Shown piece by piece: positions 15,904-32,466 of a DNA stretch of 55,529 nt. The stretch is from Verrucomicrobiia bacterium (GTDB taxonomy: Bacteria; Verrucomicrobiota; Verrucomicrobiia; Verrucomicrobiales; DEV007): contig JAUIGD010000005.1 of assembly GCA_030430255.1 (NCBI GenBank), positions 1 to 55,529 of the forward strand. Direction: 5' to 3'. A program made the translations under genes and the position numbers. Under the pieces are notes generated by a model. The model did no database searches. It was given only the letters and a program-made list of their open reading frames with translations, and was not told where the DNA came from. Position 1 is the first letter of the stretch; each line of letters opens with the position of its first letter.

Positions 15904-18357
15904 CTACCGCTCCACCCGCCGGTAAAGGAAGGCGTCGGAGGTCAGCAGCGAGGTCAGCAGCGCGTCCATGCTGCCGCCGGACTCGCGGTAGGCACGCCAC
16001 GCGGCCTGCAGCACGGGCGCGTCCTCGGGCGTCTCGTTGCGGCCGATCCAGAAACGGAAGACGTGGCGGACGAAGACCTGCTCGACGCGCTCGCTGGCGG
16101 CGAGCCTGGCGATCATGTCCAGCGCGTCGGTCACCGGCCCGTCGAGTTCGGGATCGCCGGTATGGAGGATCCCGCCGCCCGTGTCGACCGGCTCCCCGTG
16201 CTCGGTGACCCGGTAGAGGCCGATGTGGTTGTACATTTCAAAGGGCAGCCCGAGGGGGTCCATCTGCTGGTGGCAGCGCCAGCACTCCGCCTCGCGGGTG
16301 ACGCGCATGCGGTGGCGCAAGGTCGACTGCGGCTCGTCGGGGAGCTGGGCGTCGACGGTGATGGGGACATCCGGGACGGCGCCGCCGAGCAGGCGCTCGA
16401 GGATCCACTTGCCGCGGTGGATGGCGTGGTTGTCCATCGCGTCCGAATGGGAGACCAACCAGCTCGGGTGGGTGAGGATGCCCATGCGTTGACCCTCCGG
16501 CAGCGTCGTCAGCGTGCGGTCGGCGTCGCCGCCGTAGTAGCGCAGCCCGGGCACGCGCACTTTGATGGCCTCCCCCTTCGGCAGCATCGTGTGGCCGCGC
16601 TCCTCGGGGGTGGGCTGGCGCTTCTTCTTCGGGTTGTTCGGGTCCGGCTTCGGCTTGGGGTTCCTGAGGTTTTCGCGGGTGCTGTAGTAGAGCGAGTCCG
16701 AGCGGGGGCGATAGACGGCCCGGTCGGTGGTCAGCAGCTCGCGCAGGACGTCGCGGTCCTCCTCGAGGATCCGTTCGACGAGCCGGTCCGTGCTCTGCAC
16801 CATCGCGAACATGTCGGAGACGTAGTCGCGCGGCGCCCCGCCGGTCGCCTCGCTCAACGCGGCGTCGTCCTTGCAGATGCGGCCGGCGCGGTCGTAGTCG
16901 AAGTACTCGCGGAAGAACTGCAGGACGCGCGGTTTGCGGATGCTCGGGTCGCCGAGGATGCGCGCCACCTCGCGGGCGACGTCGTCGCGATCCTTCATGC
17001 GGCCGTCGAGGACGGCCCCCCGCAGATCGGGGTTCGGCGGCAGGTAGCTGAACGCGGCGTTCACGGCGAGGGCGAGCTCCCAGTCCTGCAGCATGACGCG
17101 GCCGTGCTCGTCGGGCGAACCCCGCTCCGCCAGCTCGGCGCGGAACAGGGCTTCGCGATCGAGGAAGATCGAGGACAGGCCGAGGATCACCCCCTCCTCC
17201 TTGCCGAGTTCGGCGACCGCGCCCTCGGCGATCCTGCAGTAGGTGGCGGACTCCTCCGCGGTCGGCGGGCGGAAGGTGAGCGCCTCGAAGAGGAAATCGA
17301 CCGCCGCGCGCAGCTCGGCCCCGCCGACGCCCTCCCCCTCCATCAGTTCGGCCACCGGGGTCAGGGGTCGCGTCGGCTCGGTCTGGTAGGTCAGGCTCTG
17401 GATGGTCCCGCGGATGTCGACGCCCTGGTATTTCGCCGGGCGCTGGACTTTCTTCGGCTCGTCGGTGAACTGCCAGCTCTCGCCGGGCGGCCCGAGCGCC
17501 ATGTAGCGGACGATGTCTTCGGCGGTCTGGGCGATCTGCGTGGCTTCGGCTCCGTTGACCGAGGAGAGGGACGGATAACTGCGCAGGCCGTGGTCGGCGG
17601 CCGTGCTGAGCACCGGCGGGAAGCCGGTGATGGCGGCGACATACGCGGCGCTGCCGCCGACCCAGCTGTTGATGCGGTCGAGCCCGTAGTAGACCTTCAC
17701 CTCGCCGAGCGTGTTCCAAGGGATCTGGTCGCCGCGGGCGCGCAGGCCGGGGTGGTTCGGGTTGTATTCGGGCTCCTCGTTGATGAGCGCGTTGAGCCGG
17801 ACGAGGTGCTCCTGCGGATCGACGCGCCAGAGGCGGGCCGGCGTCGAGGTCGGCGCCAACCCCTCGGGGATCGCGCCGAAGAGGAGTTCGTGCGGCAGGT
17901 GGTTGGCCTTGGAGGGGTGGCGGTGGGTGCTGAAGCCGCCGGCGTCCGCGAGCGCCGTCTCGAGCTCGCCGGTGATCCACGTCGAGATCCGCAGTCGCTC
18001 GCCGGCCGAGGGCTGGTTCTTCTTGTCCCGCGGCGGCATGGCCGCGAGGGCGACCTGTTCCCAGACCCGGGTCCAGAGCTCGGCGTTCTCGGCGCCGACG
18101 CCGCCCAGCCCCTCCAGCGAGACGCCGCCCTTCTGCACGTCCGAGTCGTGGCAGTCGTAGCAGTAGTTGGCGAGGAACGGTTCGAGCTCGACGGCCGGCG
18201 GCGCGGCGGCGGCGCCGGGCGACAGCAGGCCCGCAAGCGCCGCCGCCACGCTGACGATCGGCAGGCGCGCAGCGCGGGACGGCGGCGTCCGGGCGACGCC
18301 CTCGCCTCCGCGCCACCCGAGAGGACGCGCGGGCCGTTCGGAATCGCCAGCAGACAT
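15904..18357 (-). CDS. DUF1592/DUF1588-type planctomycete cytochrome-like protein
   Basis: CxxCH motifs NYCYDCHDSDVQKGG and CWRCHQQMDPLGLPFE; ...RMGILTHPSWLVSHSDAMDNHAIHRGKWILERLLGG...PD-V block typical of DUF1588. Confidence 0.85.
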   Translation of the reverse strand: MSAGDSERPARPLGWRGGEGVARTPPSRAARLPIVSVAAALAGLLSPGAAAAPPAVELEPFLANYCYDCHDSDVQKGGVSLEGLGGVGAENAELWTRVWEQVALAAMPPRDKKNQPSAGERLRISTWITGELETALADAGGFSTHRHPSKANHLPHELLFGAIPEGLAPTSTPARLWRVDPQEHLVRLNALINEEPEYNPNHPGLRARGDQIPWNTLGEVKVYYGLDRINSWVGGSAAYVAAITGFPPVLSTAADHGLRSYPSLSSVNGAEATQIAQTAEDIVRYMALGPPGESWQFTDEPKKVQRPAKYQGVDIRGTIQSLTYQTEPTRPLTPVAELMEGEGVGGAELRAAVDFLFEALTFRPPTAEESATYCRIAEGAVAELGKEEGVILGLSSIFLDREALFRAELAERGSPDEHGRVMLQDWELALAVNAAFSYLPPNPDLRGAVLDGRMKDRDDVAREVARILGDPSIRKPRVLQFFREYFDYDRAGRICKDDAALSEATGGAPRDYVSDMFAMVQSTDRLVERILEEDRDVLRELLTTDRAVYRPRSDSLYYSTRENLRNPKPKPDPNNPKKKRQPTPEERGHTMLPKGEAIKVRVPGLRYYGGDADRTLTTLPEGQRMGILTHPSWLVSHSDAMDNHAIHRGKWILERLLGGAVPDVPITVDAQLPDEPQSTLRHRMRVTREAECWRCHQQMDPLGLPFEMYNHIGLYRVTEHGEPVDTGGGILHTGDPELDGPVTDALDMIARLAASERVEQVFVRHVFRFWIGRNETPEDAPVLQAAWRAYRESGGSMDALLTSLLTSDAFLYRRVER

Positions 18358-18365
18358 CGGCTTGG

Positions 18366-19703
18366 CTACGCCATCAGCTGCTCGATCGGCCCGACGCCCC
18401 GGTCGAACTTCTCGGCCAGCTTGCCGTCCATGTTGAAGCGGTCGCAGGGCGCGCCGGCGGCGTGGAGGAGGGTGGCGTACATCGCGTTGATCGGCCGTTT
18501 GCCGTCCAGCTGGGTGAACTGGCCGGTCTTGATCGCGCCGCCCGGGTTGCCGATCAGCATGAACGGCCAGTTCTGGCCATTGGTGTGCTGCTTGTCGGCG
18601 TTGTTGCTGGTGTAGACGATCAGCGTGTGGTCCATCATCGTGCCGCCGTCCTCGGGCATCGACTCGAGGCTCTCGACCAATTTCACCAGCATGCGGCTGT
18701 TGTACTGGCGGATCTTGACCCAGATGTCGTTCCCCGGCTGTGGCATGTGACCCAGGTTGTGCCCCTGCTTGTCGACGCCGAGCCCCTTCCACGCACCGAA
18801 GATCTCGCCGCGGCCGGAGCCGATCGTGAGGGTGTTGGTGATGCCGGACCGGAGGGCGGCGATGCCGATGTCGAGCAGCGCGTCATGCCAGTCGGTCTCG
18901 AACTCGGGCGCGGTGAACTTTGCCCCGAACTCGGGGGCGAACTGGCCGAGGTGCGCCGAGGCGCCGGCCAGCCGCTCGCGCAGGCCGTTGATGTCGCGGA
19001 ATCCGTCGACGTAGTTGCCATAGCGCGCCCGCTCGCCGGCGGGCAGGGATTCGCCGCCGTTGCGGGCGAGCCCCTCGACGGCGTCGAAGACCCGCGAGCG
19101 CGCCTCGTAGCGCCGTTTCACCTCGCCGGTCGCGATGCCGCCGAACAGCATCTGGTAGAGGTCGACCGGGTTCGAGTGCATGAAGATCGGCCGGCCGGCA
19201 CCCGCGGCGGAGAGCGTCGCCAAGGTCGGGCGCGAGCGCATGTTCTCGAGCGAGTCCATGCCGATGCAGAGGTGCGGCAGGATCGTCTCGGGAAGGAGGC
19301 CGCTGACCACGTGGTCGATCGTCACGCCGCGGGCCGGGATGCCGATGCCGCCGCGGTAGCCGCCGAGCGCGCCGAAGTAGGCGCTGTGCGAGGGGCTGGT
19401 GTGGCGCCCGTGCAGGCCGTTGACGATGTGCAGCTTGTCTTTGATCGCCTCGAGCGGCCGGATCGGTTCGGGCAGCTCGACCCCGGCGAGGGGGACGTCT
19501 TCCCCGAGCCCCTTCGGGATCGCGGTCGCCGGGTCGAAGCCCTGGTTCTGCAGGAAGAAGACGATGCGCTTGAGGCCGCGGGCGGCGCCGGGGGCCGCAC
19601 CCTGGGCTGCACCGGCATGGGCGGCGGGCGGCAGCAGCGATGGGCCAAAGGCGGCACCGGTGGCGGTGGCGAGCGATTTGAGGGCGGAGCGGCGGGTGAG
19701 CAT
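18366..19703 (-). CDS. DUF1552 domain-containing exported protein
   Basis: [30 protein letters not shown] signal; ...[15 protein letters not shown]...[48 protein letters not shown].... Confidence 0.88.
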
Positions 19704-19856
19704 GGGCGAAAAGGTCGCAATCAATGTCCGCCCGGCGCGGAATCAAACGGAAGTCGGGGCTGGGCGGAGCGGCGGCATTGCCGCCGTGGTCCGGTCGCGC
19801 CTGACCCGGTTTTCGCCCCACGGATGCCGGGCGCCAGAGCGCCCGCCACCGCCCGC

Positions 19857-19880: not shown

Positions 19881-19944
19881 CGTTGCTGTGATCGAAATGG
19901 AATGGGGGCTTCCATGATCCCCGGGGTCGATGTATTTTCGCGGG

Positions 19945-21354
19945 ATGAAAATGCGTGCGCTCCTCGCCGCGGCCGGAGTGGCCTCGGGCGGGTTCTGGCT
20001 CGGCTACGCCAGCGCGCCGGGGGAACGAGCCGGTGGCGAGGTGGGCGAGGCGGGGGAAGCATCGGGGGCGCAACGAAGCCCGGAGCCGGAGCCGGCGACC
20101 GCGCTGGGCAGGTCGGAGCCCGGCTCGGCGGCCATGCTCGCCCGCGTGTCGCGCGCCGGGGGGCTGGGCGGCTTCTCCAAACTGCGCGCCACCTTGCGCC
20201 TCATCGACGCGTGCGAACCCGGGGAGTTCGACGCCTTGCTCGAGCAGTTGGCTGTGGAGCACGGCGTCGGTTTCGACGATGACTTCGGCATGGTCGAGAT
20301 GCTGGCGGAGCGGCTGTTCAAACGCTGGGCGGAGGTGGACGGCGTCGGCTTGGCGGAGGCCTTTGTCCGCGGCGACGTGCTGGTGTTCGATGAGAACACC
20401 TACGAGGTCGCCTTCGCCCTGGCGGAACTGGAAGGCGAGGCCGCCGACCAGATCTGGGCGACGCTGCGCGGGGCGAAGATCCGCTCTCGGCGCGAGGAAT
20501 GTTGCAAGCGCTTCCTCAACCGGCTGGCCGAGCGCGACCCGATGGCGGCTCTGAAGCGGGCGGCGGACCTCGATCCCCAGTCCGAGCGCAGCGCCATCAC
20601 CGAGGTGCTGGAGAAGGCGGCGAAGAAGGATCCGCTCGCGGCCTTGGCGTTTGTGGAACGGCTGCCGCAAGCCCCGTTAGAGCATGTCGTCCGAGCCACG
20701 GTCGCGCCGGGAGGGGAGATGCGTAGCGACATCGTGATGACTCTGGGCTCCGATCCCAACCTTCGGGTGGTCGCCCATGAGTGGTCGCAGAGGGACCCGG
20801 CAGCGGCGCTCAGCTGGTCGGAGACGCTGCCTGAATCGCAGCGGGTCACCCTCATGCCGGCGCTGCTCGAAGGGTGGCTCAAGGCCGAGCCGGAAGCGGC
20901 CCTGGCCCATGCGGCGGAGCATCTCCGGGGAAGGGAGCGAGATGGGTTCTACGATCGCGCGATGTCGAACCGAGATCTGCCGCTGGAACGCCGGCGGGAA
21001 CTCGCGGAGGCGGGGACGCTCCATGCCACGCGCGGTCGAACGCGGTTCGTGGCCGACTGGCTGCGGCAGGACCCCGCAGCGGCCGCTGCCTGGCTGGCGG
21101 AGCAGCCGCGGGAAGCGGCGCTGACATTGATCGGAGCAGCGGCTGTCATCTCGGGTTCTGACATCCGGTTCGACGAGATCGCCGACCCGGAGCTTCGAGA
21201 GGCAGCGGAGAACCCGCCCGGATTGCGTTGGTCAGAGATGTCGAATCAGTTTGAGTTCCTGCAGCCCGTGCCGCCCGAAGCGTTCCTCCCGCCCGGTGCG
21301 TTCCTCCCGCCCGGACCATACGATCCACCAGAAGGGAACGGGGGGACACTGTGA
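19945..21354 (+). CDS. Exported WxxxDPxxA-repeat protein, unknown function
   Basis: MKMRALLAAAGVASGGFWLGY signal; repeats such as LAERDPMAALKRA, AAKKDPLAALAFVERL, WSQRDPAAALSWSETL, WLRQDPAAAAAWLAEQ. Confidence 0.8.
   Translation: MKMRALLAAAGVASGGFWLGYASAPGERAGGEVGEAGEASGAQRSPEPEPATALGRSEPGSAAMLARVSRAGGLGGFSKLRATLRLIDACEPGEFDALLEQLAVEHGVGFDDDFGMVEMLAERLFKRWAEVDGVGLAEAFVRGDVLVFDENTYEVAFALAELEGEAADQIWATLRGAKIRSRREECCKRFLNRLAERDPMAALKRAADLDPQSERSAITEVLEKAAKKDPLAALAFVERLPQAPLEHVVRATVAPGGEMRSDIVMTLGSDPNLRVVAHEWSQRDPAAALSWSETLPESQRVTLMPALLEGWLKAEPEAALAHAAEHLRGRERDGFYDRAMSNRDLPLERRRELAEAGTLHATRGRTRFVADWLRQDPAAAAAWLAEQPREAALTLIGAAAVISGSDIRFDEIADPELREAAENPPGLRWSEMSNQFEFLQPVPPEAFLPPGAFLPPGPYDPPEGNGGTL
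21279..21315 (+). repeat. 18 bp tandem duplication in coding sequence (AFLPPG x2)
   Basis: GCGTTCCTCCCGCCCGGT followed by GCGTTCCTCCCGCCCGGA. Confidence 0.7.
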
Positions 21355-23306
21355 AGACCTTCGGCGGCATCACCCTCGCCGCGCTCGCCGTCGCCGCCTT
21401 CGCGGCGGGACGGTGGGCGGGAGCGGGGCAGACTTCGGCGGAGCCGACGGGCGATGCTTCGACCAGCGGTGCCAGCGGATCGGGCCAGGCAGTCGGAGCC
21501 GCGAGCGACACTTGGGAGGCGGGCGTCAAGGAGCTGGTCGAGGCGCCGCCGGCGGGGCGAGGGGCGGAATGGGTGGCGCGCCTGTTGGACGGCGATGTCG
21601 ACGGGGTGGCGGCGGAGCTGGAGGCGATCGAGGACGAGGCGGCGCGGACGGATGCCTGCCTCGAGGCGATCGCGGCCATGGACAGCGCGGCGATCCGCAC
21701 CTTGGTGGAGACCTACTTCGGGGGCGAGGACACCGAGGTCGCAGAGGCCTGGGTCGACACCGTCGATGAGGTTGCGGCCTTCGCCTTCATGCAGCGCTGG
21801 GCGGAGGTCGATGCCGCTGGCCTGCTGGCCTACGGCAAGGGTCGCTGGGAGGCGGCGGGTTCGCCGGGCGACGACGAGTCGATGTCGGCCTGGTTCGCGT
21901 TCGGGGCAGCGCTGTTCGTGGCCGAGATCGACCCCGACCGAGCCATCGCGCTCGGCGAGGCGATCGGCGGCGACATGGGGCAGGAGGTCAAACTGATGTC
22001 CATCGAGCTGCTCGCGAAGGCCGACCCCAAGCGGGCGCTGGAGCTGGCGCTGGCCGAGGAAGGTGTCCTCGACAACTTCGGTGGCATGCTCGGCTTCGCA
22101 GGGCCCCGCGTCGGCGAGGCCTTGCCGGTGGCGATGGCGATCGAGGACGAGGAGCTGAGATCGGAGGTGCTGGAGTCGCTGCTCGAGCCGATGTTCCTCG
22201 CCGACCCGCTCGCCACCTTCGAGGCGGTGCTCGTCTGGCCGGATGCCGACGAGGCCGAGGAGTTGACCGTCGATCTGATCGAAGCCTGGGCCGGGCGCGA
22301 CCCGGCGGCGGCGCTCGCTGCGGCCGACCGCGTCCCGGATGGGTTGCGCGAGGAGGCGAGGTATTCCGCCTTCATCGGTTGGGCCACACGCGAGCCCCGG
22401 GTGGCGCCCTCCGCGGCTCAGGCGGAACTTGGCGATGAAGACATGGCGGCCCTCGCGGTCCACGCTGCCGCGGCGATGCCGCCGAACGAGGCCTTGATGT
22501 TTGCCAACGTTCTGAGCCCCGCAGGACGAACGGCGTTGCTCGGCAACTACCTCGCTGAAGATGCCCCCGCGGCGCTGCAGTGGATCGCGGGGGGGGCGGA
22601 CGACGAGATCCCGGAGCGCGATTCCCTGGCGCGGAGGGCGGGGTTGCAGTTGGGCGCCGACGGCGCCGACGCCGTGCGCGAGGCGATGGCCCTGCTCGCT
22701 GGCGCGGAGGGCGACGCCGAGGGGAACCTGCCCGCCCGCCTCCTCCTCGGCGCGCTGCCCGCCCTCGGCTACAACAGTCCGGCCGAAGCCCAAGCCTTGA
22801 TCGCGAGCGCCCCGGCCGATCGCCGGACGGAGCTCTCGAACGCCCTCGCACAGGGTTGGGTCGAGCGCGACCCCGAGGCGGCGGTCGCCTTCGTCCGCGC
22901 CGAAGGCGACGCCGACGGGGCAGCGGCGACCTGGGGCCGCTGGGCGCTGTTCGACCCGGGGGCGGCACACGCCTCGATCCTCGCCGCGGAGGCCGGCGAC
23001 CCGGCCGCGCTGGCGGAGGCCGTGGAGCGGTCGCGGCTCGCCGTCGCGTGGGCGAACCGCGACCCGGAAGCGGCGGCGCACGCGATGCTGGATCTGCCCG
23101 CAACCGACGCGGCGGCCGGCGAGCAGCTGGCGGTCGTGATGGGAAATTGGGCGACCTACGATCCCGTCGCGGCCTCGCAGTTCGCCGCGTCGCAACTCGC
23201 GCCCGGCGAGGTTCGCGACGCGGCGGTGAAGGCGCTGTCAGAAGGGCTGGAGCGCACCGATCCGGAAGCGGCCGCGGCTTGGCGGGCGACGATCGGCGAG
23301 CGGTAG
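21351..23306 (+). CDS. Exported WxxxDPxxA-repeat protein, unknown function (GTG start, overlaps upstream stop)
   Basis: KTFGGITLAALAVAAFAAGRW signal; repeats WAGRDPAAALAAADRV, WVERDPEAAVAFV, WANRDPEAAAHAML, WATYDPVAASQFA. GTGA start/stop overlap. Confidence 0.82.
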   Translation: MKTFGGITLAALAVAAFAAGRWAGAGQTSAEPTGDASTSGASGSGQAVGAASDTWEAGVKELVEAPPAGRGAEWVARLLDGDVDGVAAELEAIEDEAARTDACLEAIAAMDSAAIRTLVETYFGGEDTEVAEAWVDTVDEVAAFAFMQRWAEVDAAGLLAYGKGRWEAAGSPGDDESMSAWFAFGAALFVAEIDPDRAIALGEAIGGDMGQEVKLMSIELLAKADPKRALELALAEEGVLDNFGGMLGFAGPRVGEALPVAMAIEDEELRSEVLESLLEPMFLADPLATFEAVLVWPDADEAEELTVDLIEAWAGRDPAAALAAADRVPDGLREEARYSAFIGWATREPRVAPSAAQAELGDEDMAALAVHAAAAMPPNEALMFANVLSPAGRTALLGNYLAEDAPAALQWIAGGADDEIPERDSLARRAGLQLGADGADAVREAMALLAGAEGDAEGNLPARLLLGALPALGYNSPAEAQALIASAPADRRTELSNALAQGWVERDPEAAVAFVRAEGDADGAAATWGRWALFDPGAAHASILAAEAGDPAALAEAVERSRLAVAWANRDPEAAAHAMLDLPATDAAAGEQLAVVMGNWATYDPVAASQFAASQLAPGEVRDAAVKALSEGLERTDPEAAAAWRATIGER

Positions 23307-25567: not shown

Positions 25568-25654
25568 ATCTTGCAGAAAAGTTGTCGGATTCGCGCCGGA
25601 CGCCGGATGGTAGGGGGAAGGGCTGACCCGCCGCCCCGCCCCGCTTTGACCACG

Positions 25655-27727
25655 ATGACCGACGATGCCGCATTGCTCTCCGCCTTCGCCGCCCGCCGCG
25701 ACGAGGCGGCCTTCGCGGCCCTGGTCGAACGCTACGGTGGCCTCGTGGTCGGGGCGGCGATGCGGCGCCTGCGCGGCGACCGGGCGCTCGCCGAAGAGGT
25801 GGCACAAAACGTGTTCGCGACGCTCGCCCGCAAGGCCGGCGAGCTGCGGGCGCACCCCGCGCTGGCGGCTTGGCTGCAGCGCGCGGCGGCCTTCGAATCG
25901 ATGCGCGCCGCCGAGAAGGAGCAGAACCGGGCGCGGGTGATGGAGTCCTACCGCATCGACCGCGAGGCGCTGGACAAAGCGTCGCCGGCCGGGCCTCCGG
26001 GCGACCCGAGGTGGGGCGAGGCGCTGCCCGCGCTCGACGAGGCGATGGCGGCGCTGCCGGAACTCGATCGCGAGGTCCTGTTGCGGCGCTATTGGCGGGG
26101 CCAACCCTACGCCGAGATCGCGGCGGCGCTGGGCCGCAGCAGCGGGGCGCTCGAGAAGAGGGCGGCGCGCGCGCTGGACAAGCTGGCGCGCTGGTTCCGC
26201 GGCAGGCGCGGCCTGGCGCTGCCGGCGGCGGCGCTGGCGACCGGGCTGGGCGCGGCCTTGCAATCGGGCGCCGAGGCGGCGCCGGCGGGGCTGGCGGCCG
26301 GGGCGCTGGCGGCGGCCTCTTCCGGCGGCGGGGCCGCGGCGATCACCACCACCACCACGACAGCGACGATCATGAAAACGAAACTCCTCACCGGCGCCGG
26401 GGCCCTGGCGGCGCTGCTCTGCGCGACCGGCGTCGGCTGGGTCGCGGCGCGCGCCTCGACCTCGAACGCCCGCGCGCTGGAAGGGCTCGAAGCCGACGGC
26501 GACACCTCCGGTCCGAAGCCCCCGCGCGAGGGTCCCGGGGGCGACCGGACGGCGCCGGAAGCAGGACTTGCCGAGGGCCGCCGCGCGTCGCTGGCGACCT
26601 TGCTGCGCGCCGCCGAGGCCGAGCTGCGCCGATCGGCGCTCGACACGGCGGCCAAGGTGCGCGCCGGGGCGCGGATCTCGCTCATCGCGCCGGAAGACCT
26701 GCCCGCCGCCGCCGCGCTGGCGGTGGAGATCGAAGGCGCGCGCCGCCAACCGGGCGCGCTGGTCGCGCTGGTCCTCGAGCGCTGGGCGGGTTTCGACGGC
26801 GCCGCGGCCTGCGGGTTCGCGCTGGAGGACCTCGCGCGACCGTGGATGGGGATGCACCCGGTCTCGGACCCGCTGCGCGCCTGGGCCTCGCGCGACCCCG
26901 AGGCGGCCTTCGGGTGGTTCATGGCACGCAAGCAGACCGACCCGGCGATGCGCTACGACCAGGCGAGCATGGGGCGCTTCATGCCGATCTCCGACCTGCG
27001 CTGGGTGGTCGGCGCGTGGGCGATGCGCGACCCCTCCGCGGCGGCGGCGGCGCTGGCCTCGCTCGACGACCCGCAATCCCGCTCGGGCGCAGTCATCGGC
27101 TTGCGGGAGATGGCCGCGCTCTCGGAAGGGCGCATCGAGTTGCTAGATGCAGTGGGCGCGATGCCGGGCAGCGAGTATGAACAGCGCGACCGGATCCGCG
27201 ACCTGCTCGACGACTGGTCGCGCCACGACCCCGCCGAGCTGGCCGGCTGGCTGGACGGCGCCGAGTTCGACAAGAGCGAGGACTACATGATGTGCAAATC
27301 GGTGCTCGTCGCCTGGCTCGGCGAGGACCGCGACGCCGCGATCGACTGGTGGCTGGCGCGCGAGGGCGGGCACCCGGGGCGCGACACCAAGCTGACGCGG
27401 CTGGTCGACGCCTGGGCACAGGAGGACCCGGTCGCCGCCTCCGAGTGGCTGGCCGCCCAGGAGCTGGGCGACGACCACGCCGGCGCGGTTTTGGAATTGG
27501 CCGAGAAGCTCGTCGCCACCGACCCGGAGAGCGCGGTCGAATGGGCCAAGGCGACCCCCTCCGACGGGTTGCGGCCGACCGCGCTCCGCACCGTCTTGAA
27601 GAATTGGGCGAGGGCGGACGCGCCCGCCGCCTGGGCGGCCTACGACGCCCTGCCCGCCGACCTGCTCGACGCTGAGGCGCGCGGCAGGATCGAGGCCGAA
27701 CTCCCGCCGCGCGAAGCCGCGCCCTGA
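25655..27727 (+). CDS. ECF-like sigma-70 factor fused to a TM segment and a C-terminal WxxxDPxxA-repeat domain
   Basis: N-terminus AFAALVERYGGLVVGAAMRRLRGDRALAEEVAQNVFATLARK (region 2) and LPELDREVLLRRYWRGQPYAEIAAALGRSSGALEKRAARALDKLARWF (region 4); then ITTTTTTATIMKTKLLTGAGALAALLCATGVGWVAA; then repeats WASRDPEAAFGWFMA, WAMRDPSAAAAALA, WAQEDPVAASEWLAA. Confidence 0.88.
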   Translation: MTDDAALLSAFAARRDEAAFAALVERYGGLVVGAAMRRLRGDRALAEEVAQNVFATLARKAGELRAHPALAAWLQRAAAFESMRAAEKEQNRARVMESYRIDREALDKASPAGPPGDPRWGEALPALDEAMAALPELDREVLLRRYWRGQPYAEIAAALGRSSGALEKRAARALDKLARWFRGRRGLALPAAALATGLGAALQSGAEAAPAGLAAGALAAASSGGGAAAITTTTTTATIMKTKLLTGAGALAALLCATGVGWVAARASTSNARALEGLEADGDTSGPKPPREGPGGDRTAPEAGLAEGRRASLATLLRAAEAELRRSALDTAAKVRAGARISLIAPEDLPAAAALAVEIEGARRQPGALVALVLERWAGFDGAAACGFALEDLARPWMGMHPVSDPLRAWASRDPEAAFGWFMARKQTDPAMRYDQASMGRFMPISDLRWVVGAWAMRDPSAAAAALASLDDPQSRSGAVIGLREMAALSEGRIELLDAVGAMPGSEYEQRDRIRDLLDDWSRHDPAELAGWLDGAEFDKSEDYMMCKSVLVAWLGEDRDAAIDWWLAREGGHPGRDTKLTRLVDAWAQEDPVAASEWLAAQELGDDHAGAVLELAEKLVATDPESAVEWAKATPSDGLRPTALRTVLKNWARADAPAAWAAYDALPADLLDAEARGRIEAELPPREAAP

Positions 27728-27729
27728 CG

Positions 27730-29043
27730 ATGAATTCCAAAACGACCTTCTGGTGCCTGCTCTCCGCGGGCTGCATCGCCGGCCTCGGGCTCGGCTGGAG
27801 CCTCGGCAAACGCCCGCCGCGCCCCGCCCCACCGAGCTCGGAGGGCGGGCCGGCCGCGCCGGCCAGCGCGCTGTTGAAACCCGCCCCGGAGCGGGGGCCG
27901 GCGCCGGTCTCCCGCGACTACTCCGAAGTCGCCGAAGCGGAGATCGCGCTGCGCGACGGGCGGGACGTCGGCGAAGTCGCCACCGCGTTGCTAGGGTCGG
28001 TGCAGTCCACCGAACTGGGCGCGGAGCCGGCGGCGCTCGCCCTGATCGCCGAACTGACGCCCGAGGAGGCGCGCGAACTCCTGCCCGCACTGCTCGCGAG
28101 CTCCCCCCCACCGGCGGCGGCGCTGGCGGCGGCGGTCGGCCGCTGGGCGGAGGCGGAGCCCGAGGCGGCGCTCGCCTGGGCCGGGGCCAATCTTGGCAGC
28201 ACGGTCTTCCGCGACGCGCGCCGGGCGGCGGTGCTGTCTTGGGTGCGGCGGGGCGAACCCGCCGCGGCCCGCGACTGGTTGCTGGCAGAACTCGAGGCCG
28301 CGCCGAAGGCGCAGCGCTACATGCTCGAGCAAGATTTCGGCGCGCTGACCTTCGCCTGGGCGCAGCGCGACCCGGCGGCGGCGCTCGGGGCGGTGATCGA
28401 CGCGCCAGACGGGCGCACGCACAACATGTGGTACGGCTTCGCCCAACTCGCGGCCGACGAGAACACGCGCGGCACGGCCCTGTCGATGGTGCTCGCGCTC
28501 GACGACGAGACGGCGCGCTCGAAGGGCATCAGCACCCTCGTCGGCGCCTGGTCGGAGATCGACCCCGCGGCCGCCGCGGGCTGGCTCGACGAGCAGGCCA
28601 TCACCGACCAGAGCATCCAGTGGTCGGTCGCCCAGCGCTACGCCAACGCCGACCCCGCCGGCAACGCCGACTGGCTGCTCGACCGCACCCCGGAGGACGA
28701 CCCCGCCCTGCGGGCGCGCGCGCTGAGCATGGCGATCGGCTACTGGGTGCGCGCCGAACCGGCGGCGGTGGAGGAGTGGCTGCGCGGGCGCGGGCTCGAC
28801 GGCGACGAATCCGCCGCCGGCCAGCTCGCCGCCGGCTGGGCGACCCGCGACCCCGGACGGGCCGTCCTTTGGCTCAACAGGATCGGCGACGACGCCCGCC
28901 GCACCGCCGCCGCCGGTGGCGTGCTGTTCGAGATCCAGCAAGGCGACCGCGAGAACTTCGACCTCGAAGGGTACGCCGGGCAGTTGAAGCTTCCGCTCGA
29001 GGACTTGGACGCGGCGGTGAAGCAGGCGTCGATGCGGCTTTGA
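27730..29043 (+). CDS. Exported WxxxDPxxA-repeat protein, unknown function
   Basis: MNSKTTFWCLLSAGCIAGLGLGWSLGKR N-terminus; repeats WAEAEPEAALAWAGA, WAQRDPAAALGAVI, WSEIDPAAAAGWLDE, WATRDPGRAVLWLNR. Starts 2 bp after the sigma fusion. Confidence 0.82.
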   Translation: MNSKTTFWCLLSAGCIAGLGLGWSLGKRPPRPAPPSSEGGPAAPASALLKPAPERGPAPVSRDYSEVAEAEIALRDGRDVGEVATALLGSVQSTELGAEPAALALIAELTPEEARELLPALLASSPPPAAALAAAVGRWAEAEPEAALAWAGANLGSTVFRDARRAAVLSWVRRGEPAAARDWLLAELEAAPKAQRYMLEQDFGALTFAWAQRDPAAALGAVIDAPDGRTHNMWYGFAQLAADENTRGTALSMVLALDDETARSKGISTLVGAWSEIDPAAAAGWLDEQAITDQSIQWSVAQRYANADPAGNADWLLDRTPEDDPALRARALSMAIGYWVRAEPAAVEEWLRGRGLDGDESAAGQLAAGWATRDPGRAVLWLNRIGDDARRTAAAGGVLFEIQQGDRENFDLEGYAGQLKLPLEDLDAAVKQASMRL

Positions 29044-29832: not shown

Positions 29833-32466
29833 GTGTCCAAATCCCCGCCCCTCCTGTCCTCGGCCTGGCTCCTTCTCGGGCTGTTCCTCGCCCCGTTCGC
29901 GACCGCCGATGAGCCCGCACCCGAACGCGCCAGAACCGGCCTGCTGGCGCTCTACGATTTCCACGACGCCGAAGGCGCGCGCATCGCCGACCGATCGGGC
30001 TTGAAGCCGCCGCTCGACCTCGCGGTCGGCGACCCGAAGGCCGTCCGGCGCGAACCCGGTGAACTGACGGTGACCGGCCGGGCGGCGGTCGTTGCCCCGG
30101 GGCCCGCCCGCCGGCTGAGCGAGGCCGTGAAGCGCTCCGGCGCGATCACGATCGAAGCCTGGGTGCGCCCGGCGAAGCCCGACCAGTCCGGCCCGGCGCG
30201 CATCGTCACGCTGTCGTCGAGCACCAGCGCGCGGAACTTCACCCTCGGCCAGGACGGCGGCCAGTTCGACGTCCGCCTGCGCACGACGAAGACCGACAAC
30301 AACGGCAACCCCTCGCTGAAAGGCAGAGGCCGCGCCCTCACCACCAAGTGGACGCACGTGGTCTACACCCGCGAGAAGGGAGGGCGGACGAAGCTCTACC
30401 TCGACGGCCGCGAGGACGCCGCCGGGGAGGCGGACGGCGACCTGTCGAACTGGGACTCCGGCATGGCGCTCGCCTTGGGTGACGAGCCCGGCCGGGAGTC
30501 GCGGCTCTGGCTCGGCAGCTACCGGCTGGTCGCGCTCTACGGCCGCGCGCTGACCCCGGCGGAGGTGGCGGGCAACTTCGGCGCCGGCCCCGGCGCGGGC
30601 CCGGGCGGCGGCGCCTTGGCCGCATCGGACGCCGAGAACGAGCGCCGCTTCCACGAACAGATCGCGCCGATCTTGGCGAAGCATTGCCTCGAGTGCCACG
30701 ACACCGCCAACCGCGAGGGCGAGCTCGACCTCTCCAAGCGAGACGCCGCCCTCGCGTCGAAGTCGATCGTACCGGGGAAACCCGACGAAAGCGAGCTGTG
30801 GGGGATGGTGCTCGACGACGAAATGCCGGAGGACCGCTCGCCGCTGAACCCGGAAGAGAAAGCCGCGCTGGAGGCGTGGATCGCCGCCGGCGCGCACTGG
30901 CCCGCCGAGGAGGTCGACCCCCTCGCCCACAAACGCGACCGCCGCGCCGCGCAGACCTGGGTGCGCCGGCTGACCGTGCCGGAGTACATCGCCACGGTGC
31001 GCGATTCGCTCGGGGTCGATGTCTCCAAAGAGGCGCTAGAGATCCTGCCGCCCGACCTGCGCGCCGACGGCTTCAGCAACACCGCCTACAACCTCGGCGT
31101 CGACCTCGGCCACGTCGAGGCCTACGCCCGCCTCGCCGAGATCGCGGCCGGGCGCCTCGACAAGGCCGCCTTCGCCAAGCGCTTCAGCAGGTCGCGCAAG
31201 TTCACCGACAAGGACATGGAGGCGCTCATCCGGCCGATGGGCCGCTGGCTCCTGCGCGGCCCGCTGACCGAGGACGAGCTGGTCGCCTACCGCGGCATCA
31301 GCACCGCCGTCGCCTCCGCCGGCGGCAGCTTCGACGAGGCGGTCGGGCTGATCGTCGAGGCCATGATGCAGTCGCCGCGCTTCCTCTACCTCGTCGAGGA
31401 ACAGCGCGGCGACGGCGGGCGCTGGCCGCTCGACGCCCACGCGCTCGCGGGCCGCATGAGCTACCTCCTCTGGGGCGCGCCGCCCGACGAGGAGCTGCTG
31501 CGCGCCGCGGACAAAGGCGAGCTCGCCTCGCGCGACGGCGCCGCCCGGCAGGTCGGGCGGATGCTGAAGGACCCGCGCGCCGTCGCCCGCTCGCTGCAGT
31601 TCGCCGCCGATTGGCTGCACCTCGACCGCCTGCGCGAGATGGCGCCTAACAAAACGAAGTATCCAAATTGGACGCCCGCGCTCGCCGAAGACATGCGCGC
31701 CGAGACGCTGGCCTTCTTCGAGGACATCGCCTGGAGGGAGCGCCGCCCCCTGCACGAGCTCCTCAACGCCCAGCGCACCCACCTCACGCCCCGGCTCGCG
31801 CGCCACTACGGGATCGACCCGCCGGCGGCGGGGGCGGAGGACCAGCTCGTGCCGGTGTCCCTCGGTTCCGAACCCGCCCGCGGCGGCCTCCTCACGCAGG
31901 GCAGCATCTTGACCATCGGCGGCGACGACGCCTCGATGGTGACCCGCGGGCTGTTCGTGATGCACGACCTGCTGCGCAGCGGCGTCAAAGACCCGCCGCC
32001 CGGCACCGACACCACGCCCGTCCCCAGCGAGCCGGGCCTGCCGCAGCGCAAGATCTCCGAGATGCGCATCAACGACAAATCCTGCGGCGGCTGCCACAGC
32101 AAGTTCGAGCCGCTGGCCTTCGGGCTCGAGCGCTTCGACGGCCTGGGCGGCTACTCGGAGATCGACCGCTACGGCAACCGCCTGCGCCAGGACGGCGCCG
32201 TCCTGTTCCCCGGCGAGGCCGAGCCCGTGCCCTACGAGGACATCGCCGAGCTGATGGACCTGCTCGCCGAGAGCGAGCGCGTCCGCGAATCGATCACCTG
32301 GAAGTACGCCCAGTTCGCCCTCGGCCGCCCGATCGGCGGCGCCGACGAACCCCTGGTCAAAGCCGCCCACGCCGAGGCCACCCAGGCCGGCTTCACCTTC
32401 CAAGCCTTAGCGGAAGCCATCGCCCTCAGCGACCTCGTCCGCACCGTGCAGACGGTGGCCGAGTGA
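29833..32466 (+). CDS. LamG-like plus planctomycete cytochrome/DUF1587-1592-1588-1585-type protein (GTG start)
   Basis: Signal peptide; LamG-like ITIEAWVRP...WTHVVYTREKGGRTKLYLDG; CxxCH at HCLECHDTANREGELDL and CGGCHSKFEPLAFGLERFDGLG. Confidence 0.88.
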   Translation: MSKSPPLLSSAWLLLGLFLAPFATADEPAPERARTGLLALYDFHDAEGARIADRSGLKPPLDLAVGDPKAVRREPGELTVTGRAAVVAPGPARRLSEAVKRSGAITIEAWVRPAKPDQSGPARIVTLSSSTSARNFTLGQDGGQFDVRLRTTKTDNNGNPSLKGRGRALTTKWTHVVYTREKGGRTKLYLDGREDAAGEADGDLSNWDSGMALALGDEPGRESRLWLGSYRLVALYGRALTPAEVAGNFGAGPGAGPGGGALAASDAENERRFHEQIAPILAKHCLECHDTANREGELDLSKRDAALASKSIVPGKPDESELWGMVLDDEMPEDRSPLNPEEKAALEAWIAAGAHWPAEEVDPLAHKRDRRAAQTWVRRLTVPEYIATVRDSLGVDVSKEALEILPPDLRADGFSNTAYNLGVDLGHVEAYARLAEIAAGRLDKAAFAKRFSRSRKFTDKDMEALIRPMGRWLLRGPLTEDELVAYRGISTAVASAGGSFDEAVGLIVEAMMQSPRFLYLVEEQRGDGGRWPLDAHALAGRMSYLLWGAPPDEELLRAADKGELASRDGAARQVGRMLKDPRAVARSLQFAADWLHLDRLREMAPNKTKYPNWTPALAEDMRAETLAFFEDIAWRERRPLHELLNAQRTHLTPRLARHYGIDPPAAGAEDQLVPVSLGSEPARGGLLTQGSILTIGGDDASMVTRGLFVMHDLLRSGVKDPPPGTDTTPVPSEPGLPQRKISEMRINDKSCGGCHSKFEPLAFGLERFDGLGGYSEIDRYGNRLRQDGAVLFPGEAEPVPYEDIAELMDLLAESERVRESITWKYAQFALGRPIGGADEPLVKAAHAEATQAGFTFQALAEAIALSDLVRTVQTVAE

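Follow-up and report, generated by a model that had tools for sequence, protein, structure and literature searches.

Signaling through ECF sigma factors normally depends on a sigma factor and an anti-sigma factor. Fusions of a sigma factor to a transmembrane (TM) segment that are known by experiment are few, namely, IutY and SCO4117. IutY of Pseudomonas putida, a sigma/anti-sigma hybrid of group ECF243, is a sigma-TM-periplasmic chain that is kept inactive until Prc and RseP release it (PMC5411451). In the actinobacterial groups ECF52 (SCO4117), ECF48, and ECF53, the extension carries a TM segment and a zinc-finger anti-sigma domain (PMC5826349, PMC8999054). C-terminal extensions are also found in ECF57 of the Planctomycetes, where they consist of WD40-like repeats (PMC8999054, PMC8567305), and in ECF42, where the extension is of the TPR type (PMC8999054).

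Here, we analyzed a 55,529-nucleotide stretch of DNA (the window) from a 6.6-Mb draft genome whose named relatives are Verrucomicrobiota, mainly metagenome-assembled genomes of Verrucomicrobiales. The window contains a gene in which an ECF sigma factor is fused to a TM helix and a repeat domain, followed by a gene for a second protein with the same kind of repeat domain. The features of this locus are as follows.

25583..25616, + strand: promoter-like element, with a -35-like TGTCGGATT (25583-25591), a 19-bp gap, and a -10-like TAGGGG (from 25611), from motif enrichment
25655..27727, + strand: fusion gene encoding ECF sigma, linker, TM helix, and alpha-solenoid, 690 aa
25721..25924, + strand: sigma region 2, aa 23-90 (PF04542, E 1.4e-6; AlphaFold2 [AF2] pLDDT mostly >90)
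26030..26185, + strand: sigma region 4, aa 126-177 (PF08281, E 1.7e-13)
26384..26440, + strand: TM helix, aa 244-262 (hydrophobicity, approximate insertion-energy score, AF2 helix)
26555..27724, + strand: predicted extracytoplasmic all-helical solenoid, aa 301-690 (AF2 pLDDT mostly >85; weak HEAT/ARM-like fold matches)
27730..29043, + strand: partner gene encoding an N-terminal anchor (aa ~5-25) and a solenoid of the same family, 437 aa (profile-profile homology)

A previous sequence-only reading had described the fusion gene as one uninterrupted ORF joining sigma regions 2 and 4, a TM helix, and repeats, and our results bear this out. The frame is open from the ATG at 25655 to the stop at 27727. 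Pfam recognized Sigma70_r2 and Sigma70_r4_2 in the 690-aa protein (E values as listed above), which also scores over the cutoff of TIGR02937 (sigma70-ECF) and shows the ECF combination, with regions 2 and 4 present and regions 1 and 3 absent. Its sigma part matched solved RpoE (phmmer, E 6e-8). Against TIGR02989, the Rhodopirellula/Verrucomicrobium sigma family, the fusion scored 59.2 bits, below the curated cutoff of 124.55 bits. C-terminal to the hydrophobic helix, the solenoid part of ~390 aa contains repeats of the W-x3-DP-x2-A type. Third-position GC is 0.87 to 0.94 in each of the sigma, linker, TM, and solenoid segments, and this uniformity, which extends to the linker and TM helix, indicates a single coding frame. 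The gene has an alternative, longer start at TTG 25571; we favor ATG 25655 because the promoter-like element sits at 25583-25616. The whole architecture is kept in the relative G035:C134, with 50% identity over aa 4-667, and dozens of further relatives share it.

Structure models gave a similar division of the protein. An AF2 model of the fusion built with 48 sequences had a mean pLDDT of 83.8, with a confident sigma domain and a confident all-helical repeat domain, a disordered linker of ~60 aa (pLDDT about 30 to 65), and low confidence for helix 245-280. Foldseek matched the sigma part to the ECF structures of sigma-E, AlgU, and SigL with a probability of 1.00; for the repeat part it returned HEAT/ARM/PPR-like solenoids, all of them weak, with E above 1e-3. 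No family was found for the solenoid in a Pfam scan of the fusion, and a profile search found no sequence relative of it among solved structures; neither search gave a significant sequence match to HEAT, ARM, TPR, or PPR repeats. The partner model (pLDDT 85.5) has the same all-helical build as the fused solenoid.

The product of 27730..29043 had been called a soluble homolog in the sequence-only reading, with its start 2 bp past the fusion stop. The spacing is as described, and fused and free solenoids are homologous by profile-profile comparison (E 4.8e-39). The protein is, however, predicted to be anchored rather than soluble: its N terminus, MNSKTTFWCLLSAGCIAGLGLGWSLGKR, is signal-anchor-like, and a cleavage or lipobox motif is absent in 33 of 44 partner proteins. 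We drew loci from about a dozen relatives and a scan of named genomes. These yielded 111 distinct ECF sigma proteins of the fusion's class with long C-terminal parts, and an in-house profile detected the solenoid in 74, giving 74 distinct verrucomicrobial sigma-TM-solenoid proteins. A partner accompanies 45 of these proteins and is lacking for 21, and 8 lie at a contig end. An anchored solenoid gene thus lies directly downstream, on the same strand, in 45/66 solenoid-bearing fusions. The 21 fusions without a detectable partner include the long (~900 aa) members of family f4. At L180-L184, L186, and L196, the fusions are 900 to 990 aa long, their ectodomains span ~650 aa, and a partner gene is lacking; there, the partner may have merged into the same chain.

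Fused and free solenoids have also diverged together. Distances among fused (E) and free (D) solenoids were correlated over 43 pairs (Mantel r 0.52; 0.48 once the sigma contribution was removed). In one genome with 15 operons, the E-D correlation was 0.42 (P 0.0005), versus 0.02 for sigma-E and 0.13 for sigma-D. Because this comparison lies within one genome, base composition cannot explain the E-D value, and co-duplication of operons alone is not enough, since it would raise all three correlations. Recombination of sigma domains onto solenoid pairs could be an alternative cause of the co-divergence; under either cause, the two solenoids act as a single evolutionary unit. Their ectodomain lengths, about 280 to 620 aa, likewise co-vary (Pearson 0.73, Spearman 0.47). 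The conserved pairing with a neighbor of the same repeat family, which the sequence-only reading had singled out for study, is therefore well supported by its recurrence, co-divergence, and matched lengths. We rejected the possibility that partner and fused solenoid are recent duplicates, as cognates rank at a median of 15 of 43 by similarity; because a fused solenoid is usually not closest to its own partner, the two are old paralogues. The sigma operons share no recurrent third gene. PSD/DUF1592 genes were considered as members of the system and rejected, being present at only the window and one other of 154 loci. A PSCyt1/PSD/LamG gene confirmed by Pfam lies in the window at 29833..32466 (+).

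A second verrucomicrobial fusion group has an ectodomain without detectable homology to the solenoid (hhalign 0.1% between families), and the product of its downstream gene is anchored and homologous to the ectodomain of the sigma protein itself (hhalign 99.6% within the family). Because this second family shares the layout, the order sigma-TM-X, then TM-X, has persisted with two or more kinds of X. We regard the occurrence of this layout in two unrelated families as the strongest new point of the analysis.

Solenoid proteins themselves are more widespread; a partner-profile search recovered them in 70 of 291 genomes, spread over the phylum. None of the 40 loci sampled outside the window's family has a sigma gene of the fusion's class beside the solenoid, and the idea that most solenoid proteins adjoin a sigma factor was rejected on this count. 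Because the solenoids at these sampled loci lack an adjoining sigma gene and several stand in tandem, the anchored solenoid family is probably the older, and the sigma fusion a derived use of it. Free genes for anchored solenoids stand in tandem, as many as four together and with no sigma gene, at L234, L244, L245, L250, and L263. The window also holds a second anchored solenoid pair (19930..21354 and 21351..23306, both +), which has a 4-bp overlap and no sigma gene. Solenoid pairing may be older than the sigma fusion. This free pair is adjoined by a large gene at 15904..18792 (-) that by eye resembles the DUF1592-type cytochrome family and is itself neighbored by a gene for a DUF1552-like protein (also by eye) at 18366..19724 (-).

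The upstream regions of 109 sigma-TM genes have in common a motif, TGTC[GC]G[AG]TT, also given as TGTC[CGT]G[AG]TT. Among these regions, the word TGTCGGAT was found in 15 in the forward orientation versus 0 as the reverse complement, and GTCCGGTT was found in 14 versus 1. A search of 1.18 Mb of verrucomicrobial loci gave 60 matches to the 10-base pattern, of which 31 fall in the 220 bp preceding a sigma-TM gene. By area, the expectation there is about 0.5 (109 x 200 bp on a single strand, relative to 2 x 1.18 Mb), an enrichment of about 60 times. A thirty-second occurrence precedes an apparent sigma gene remnant in L100. This enrichment upstream of sigma-TM genes, together with the window copy at 25583, suggests that the sigma operons are likely autoregulated, with the encoded sigma factor as the presumed reader of the motif. 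The motif is also the one pointer to a possible promoter-directing activity of the sigma domain. With the strict pattern, 58 genomes gave 19 hits, about 8 of them at sigma genes and the rest at about the control level, and the window's own genome gave 9 hits versus 4 in the control. No clear regulon beyond the sigma operons emerged from these strict searches, which could miss a wider regulon, the motifs of paralogues having diverged. At L088, L097, L092, L136, and L142, only a few bases separate the -10-like element from the apparent sigma start codon downstream, as if the transcripts were leaderless.

In the best explanation, to which we give somewhat better than even chances, an ECF sigma factor is tethered to the membrane, and its outer solenoid acts together with a co-expressed partner. 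This arrangement would replace an anti-sigma factor, and the sigma domain would probably be released by intramembrane proteolysis. In the mechanism that we infer, the sigma domain would lie in the cytoplasm, anchored by one TM helix, with the HEAT-like alpha-solenoid outside the inner membrane. The anchored solenoid encoded by the next gene, similar in length, would most likely pair with the fused solenoid in the periplasm. At rest, the tether would do the work of an anti-sigma factor and hold the sigma domain off RNA polymerase. A putative signal, or a change in the solenoid pair, would then free or uncover the sigma domain, most likely through regulated intramembrane proteolysis as in IutY, and the freed sigma factor would transcribe its own operon from the TGTCGGATT-type promoter and possibly other genes of a putative regulon. 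Neither the fusion nor the neighboring genes examined contain a conventional anti-sigma domain, in agreement with the earlier proposal that no separate anti-sigma factor is involved. No site-1 or site-2 cleavage motif was identified; members of the site-2 protease family are present in the genome, and being ubiquitous they lend weak support.

Alternatively, the operon might regulate a surface protein of its own making. The partner would be the main product, and the fused solenoid would count or sample assembled partner, so that the sigma factor would chiefly govern its own operon in a homeostatic loop rather than respond to an outside stimulus. Such a loop would fit the occurrence of the motif almost only at sigma-TM operons, the free anchored solenoids, some in tandem, that exist across the phylum without a sigma factor, and the failure of any third gene to recur. 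However, the apparent confinement of the motif could reflect strict searches and diverged paralogue motifs, and the twenty or more paralogous operons per genome found in some relatives are many for pure self-control. We consider such a homeostatic surface-protein operon unlikely, though it is the alternative that fares best. Less probable again is a sigma factor that works while membrane-bound, like ToxR or CadC, with the ectodomain altering its state without cleavage. The flexible cytoplasmic linker of ~60 aa could give the needed reach, and no cleavage site was recognized. Nevertheless, a sigma factor has to move with RNA polymerase to promoters, and Prc and RseP release IutY, the characterized sigma-TM fusion (PMC5411451).

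By sequence and model, the fusion joins sigma domain, TM helix, and extracytoplasmic domain in a single chain. In practice, it might instead give rise to two proteins, a soluble sigma factor and an anchored solenoid translated on its own from the internal ATG at 26372. Met often directly precedes the TM helix, an M-x2-3-K/R motif being present in 69 of the 111 proteins, and the pre-TM segment looks like the start of the free solenoids; yet a comparable segment is found in fusions with unrelated ectodomains. Moreover, the frame is intact in nearly all relatives and the coding bias is uniform along it. Internal initiation is unlikely because the in-frame ATG preceding the TM helix is less often accompanied by Shine-Dalgarno-like sequence than other internal ATGs are (5.6% versus 23%). 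We therefore give little credence to two separate products, a possibility that the sequence-only reading had itself raised in asking whether the downstream part is made only separately.

The position of the single tethering helix was examined across the 111 fusions. The best hydrophobic window lies a median of 59 aa past the sigma domain, and the TM position in the window's fusion is shared with most of these relatives. A Kyte-Doolittle mean of 1.6 was reached by the TM window in 88 of 111 proteins and by the best other downstream window in 4. On an approximate insertion-energy score, this fusion has 0.14 for the TM helix versus 4.9 for the best ectodomain window; the medians for all 111 proteins are 0.74 for the TM helix, 2.64 for an Ala-rich helix past region 4, 5.0 for the ectodomain, and 5.2 for the sigma domain. 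Positive charge is greater on the N side than on the C side of the TM helix in 53 fusions and less in 24. These results point to a topology with sigma inside and the solenoid outside the inner membrane, and the sigma domains, TM helix, and charge bias together support, as a prediction, the earlier claim of a membrane-tethered ECF sigma factor. That the moderately hydrophobic Ala-rich helix (aa ~191-208) is a second TM helix, leaving the solenoid cytoplasmic, is hardly credible, as its insertion score is worse than that of the TM helix in 106 of 111 proteins, it often contains Glu, Arg, or Lys, and the homologous partner has a single N-terminal anchor with a positive N side.

In a large verrucomicrobial clade, then, fusion of sigma factor and TM helix is the rule, and the fusion is paired with a homologous membrane protein. 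This two-gene unit, recurrent across Verrucomicrobiota, appears to be a means, so far unstudied, of relaying external signals to transcription. Our more specific proposal is a tentative one, to which we give slightly less than even chances: the unit, having no anti-sigma factor, may form a paired receptor from a tethered sigma factor and a second anchored ectodomain, with many copies per genome in some families and with no fewer than two unrelated kinds of ectodomain. Should the paired ectodomains prove to be a receptor, they would represent a further general route from extracytoplasmic signals to transcription. Verrucomicrobiota is a phylum with little characterized regulation, and the conserved promoter motif makes the idea directly testable.

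The described systems resemble the fusion to different degrees. The extension of ECF42 consists of alpha-helical repeats and may bind the product of a nearby gene; ECF42 differs in that a TM segment is not described and the neighbor, a YCII-domain protein, is not homologous to the extension. ECF57 carries a repeat domain on an ECF sigma factor and comes from a related superphylum with large ECF expansions, but its WD40 repeats form a beta-propeller rather than an alpha-solenoid, and the text consulted in PMC8999054 and PMC8567305 describes no ectodomain pair for it. ECF52, ECF48, and ECF53 share with the fusion an ECF sigma domain, a TM-bearing C-terminal extension, and an outer domain, and autoregulation and proteolysis have been proposed for them. 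They differ in phylum, in having a zinc-finger anti-sigma domain before the TM segment, and, for ECF52, in having a carbohydrate-binding domain; in the fusion, Pfam gave no zinc-finger match before the TM helix, and the linker is predicted to be mostly disordered. No paired ectodomain gene is described for these three groups in the text consulted in PMC5826349 and PMC8999054. IutY, like the predicted fusion, combines a cytosolic ECF sigma domain, one TM helix, and a periplasmic domain in one chain, making a separate anti-sigma gene unneeded. In IutY, however, the periplasmic part is a CSS anti-sigma domain in a protein of 374 aa in all, it is driven by an outer-membrane receptor, and cleavage is proven only there. 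The CSS (FecR-type) domain of ECF243/IutY was not found in the fusion by Pfam up to E 0.1, and an all-helical solenoid of no known family takes its place; the adjacent gene encodes an anchored paralogue, and a genome carries many paralogous operons. The verrucomicrobial fusion clade may already carry an ECF number in the main ECF classification. IutY (ECF243) and ECF52 are the closest precedents, and the fusion belongs among the ECF sigma factors with a membrane-anchored C-terminal extension.
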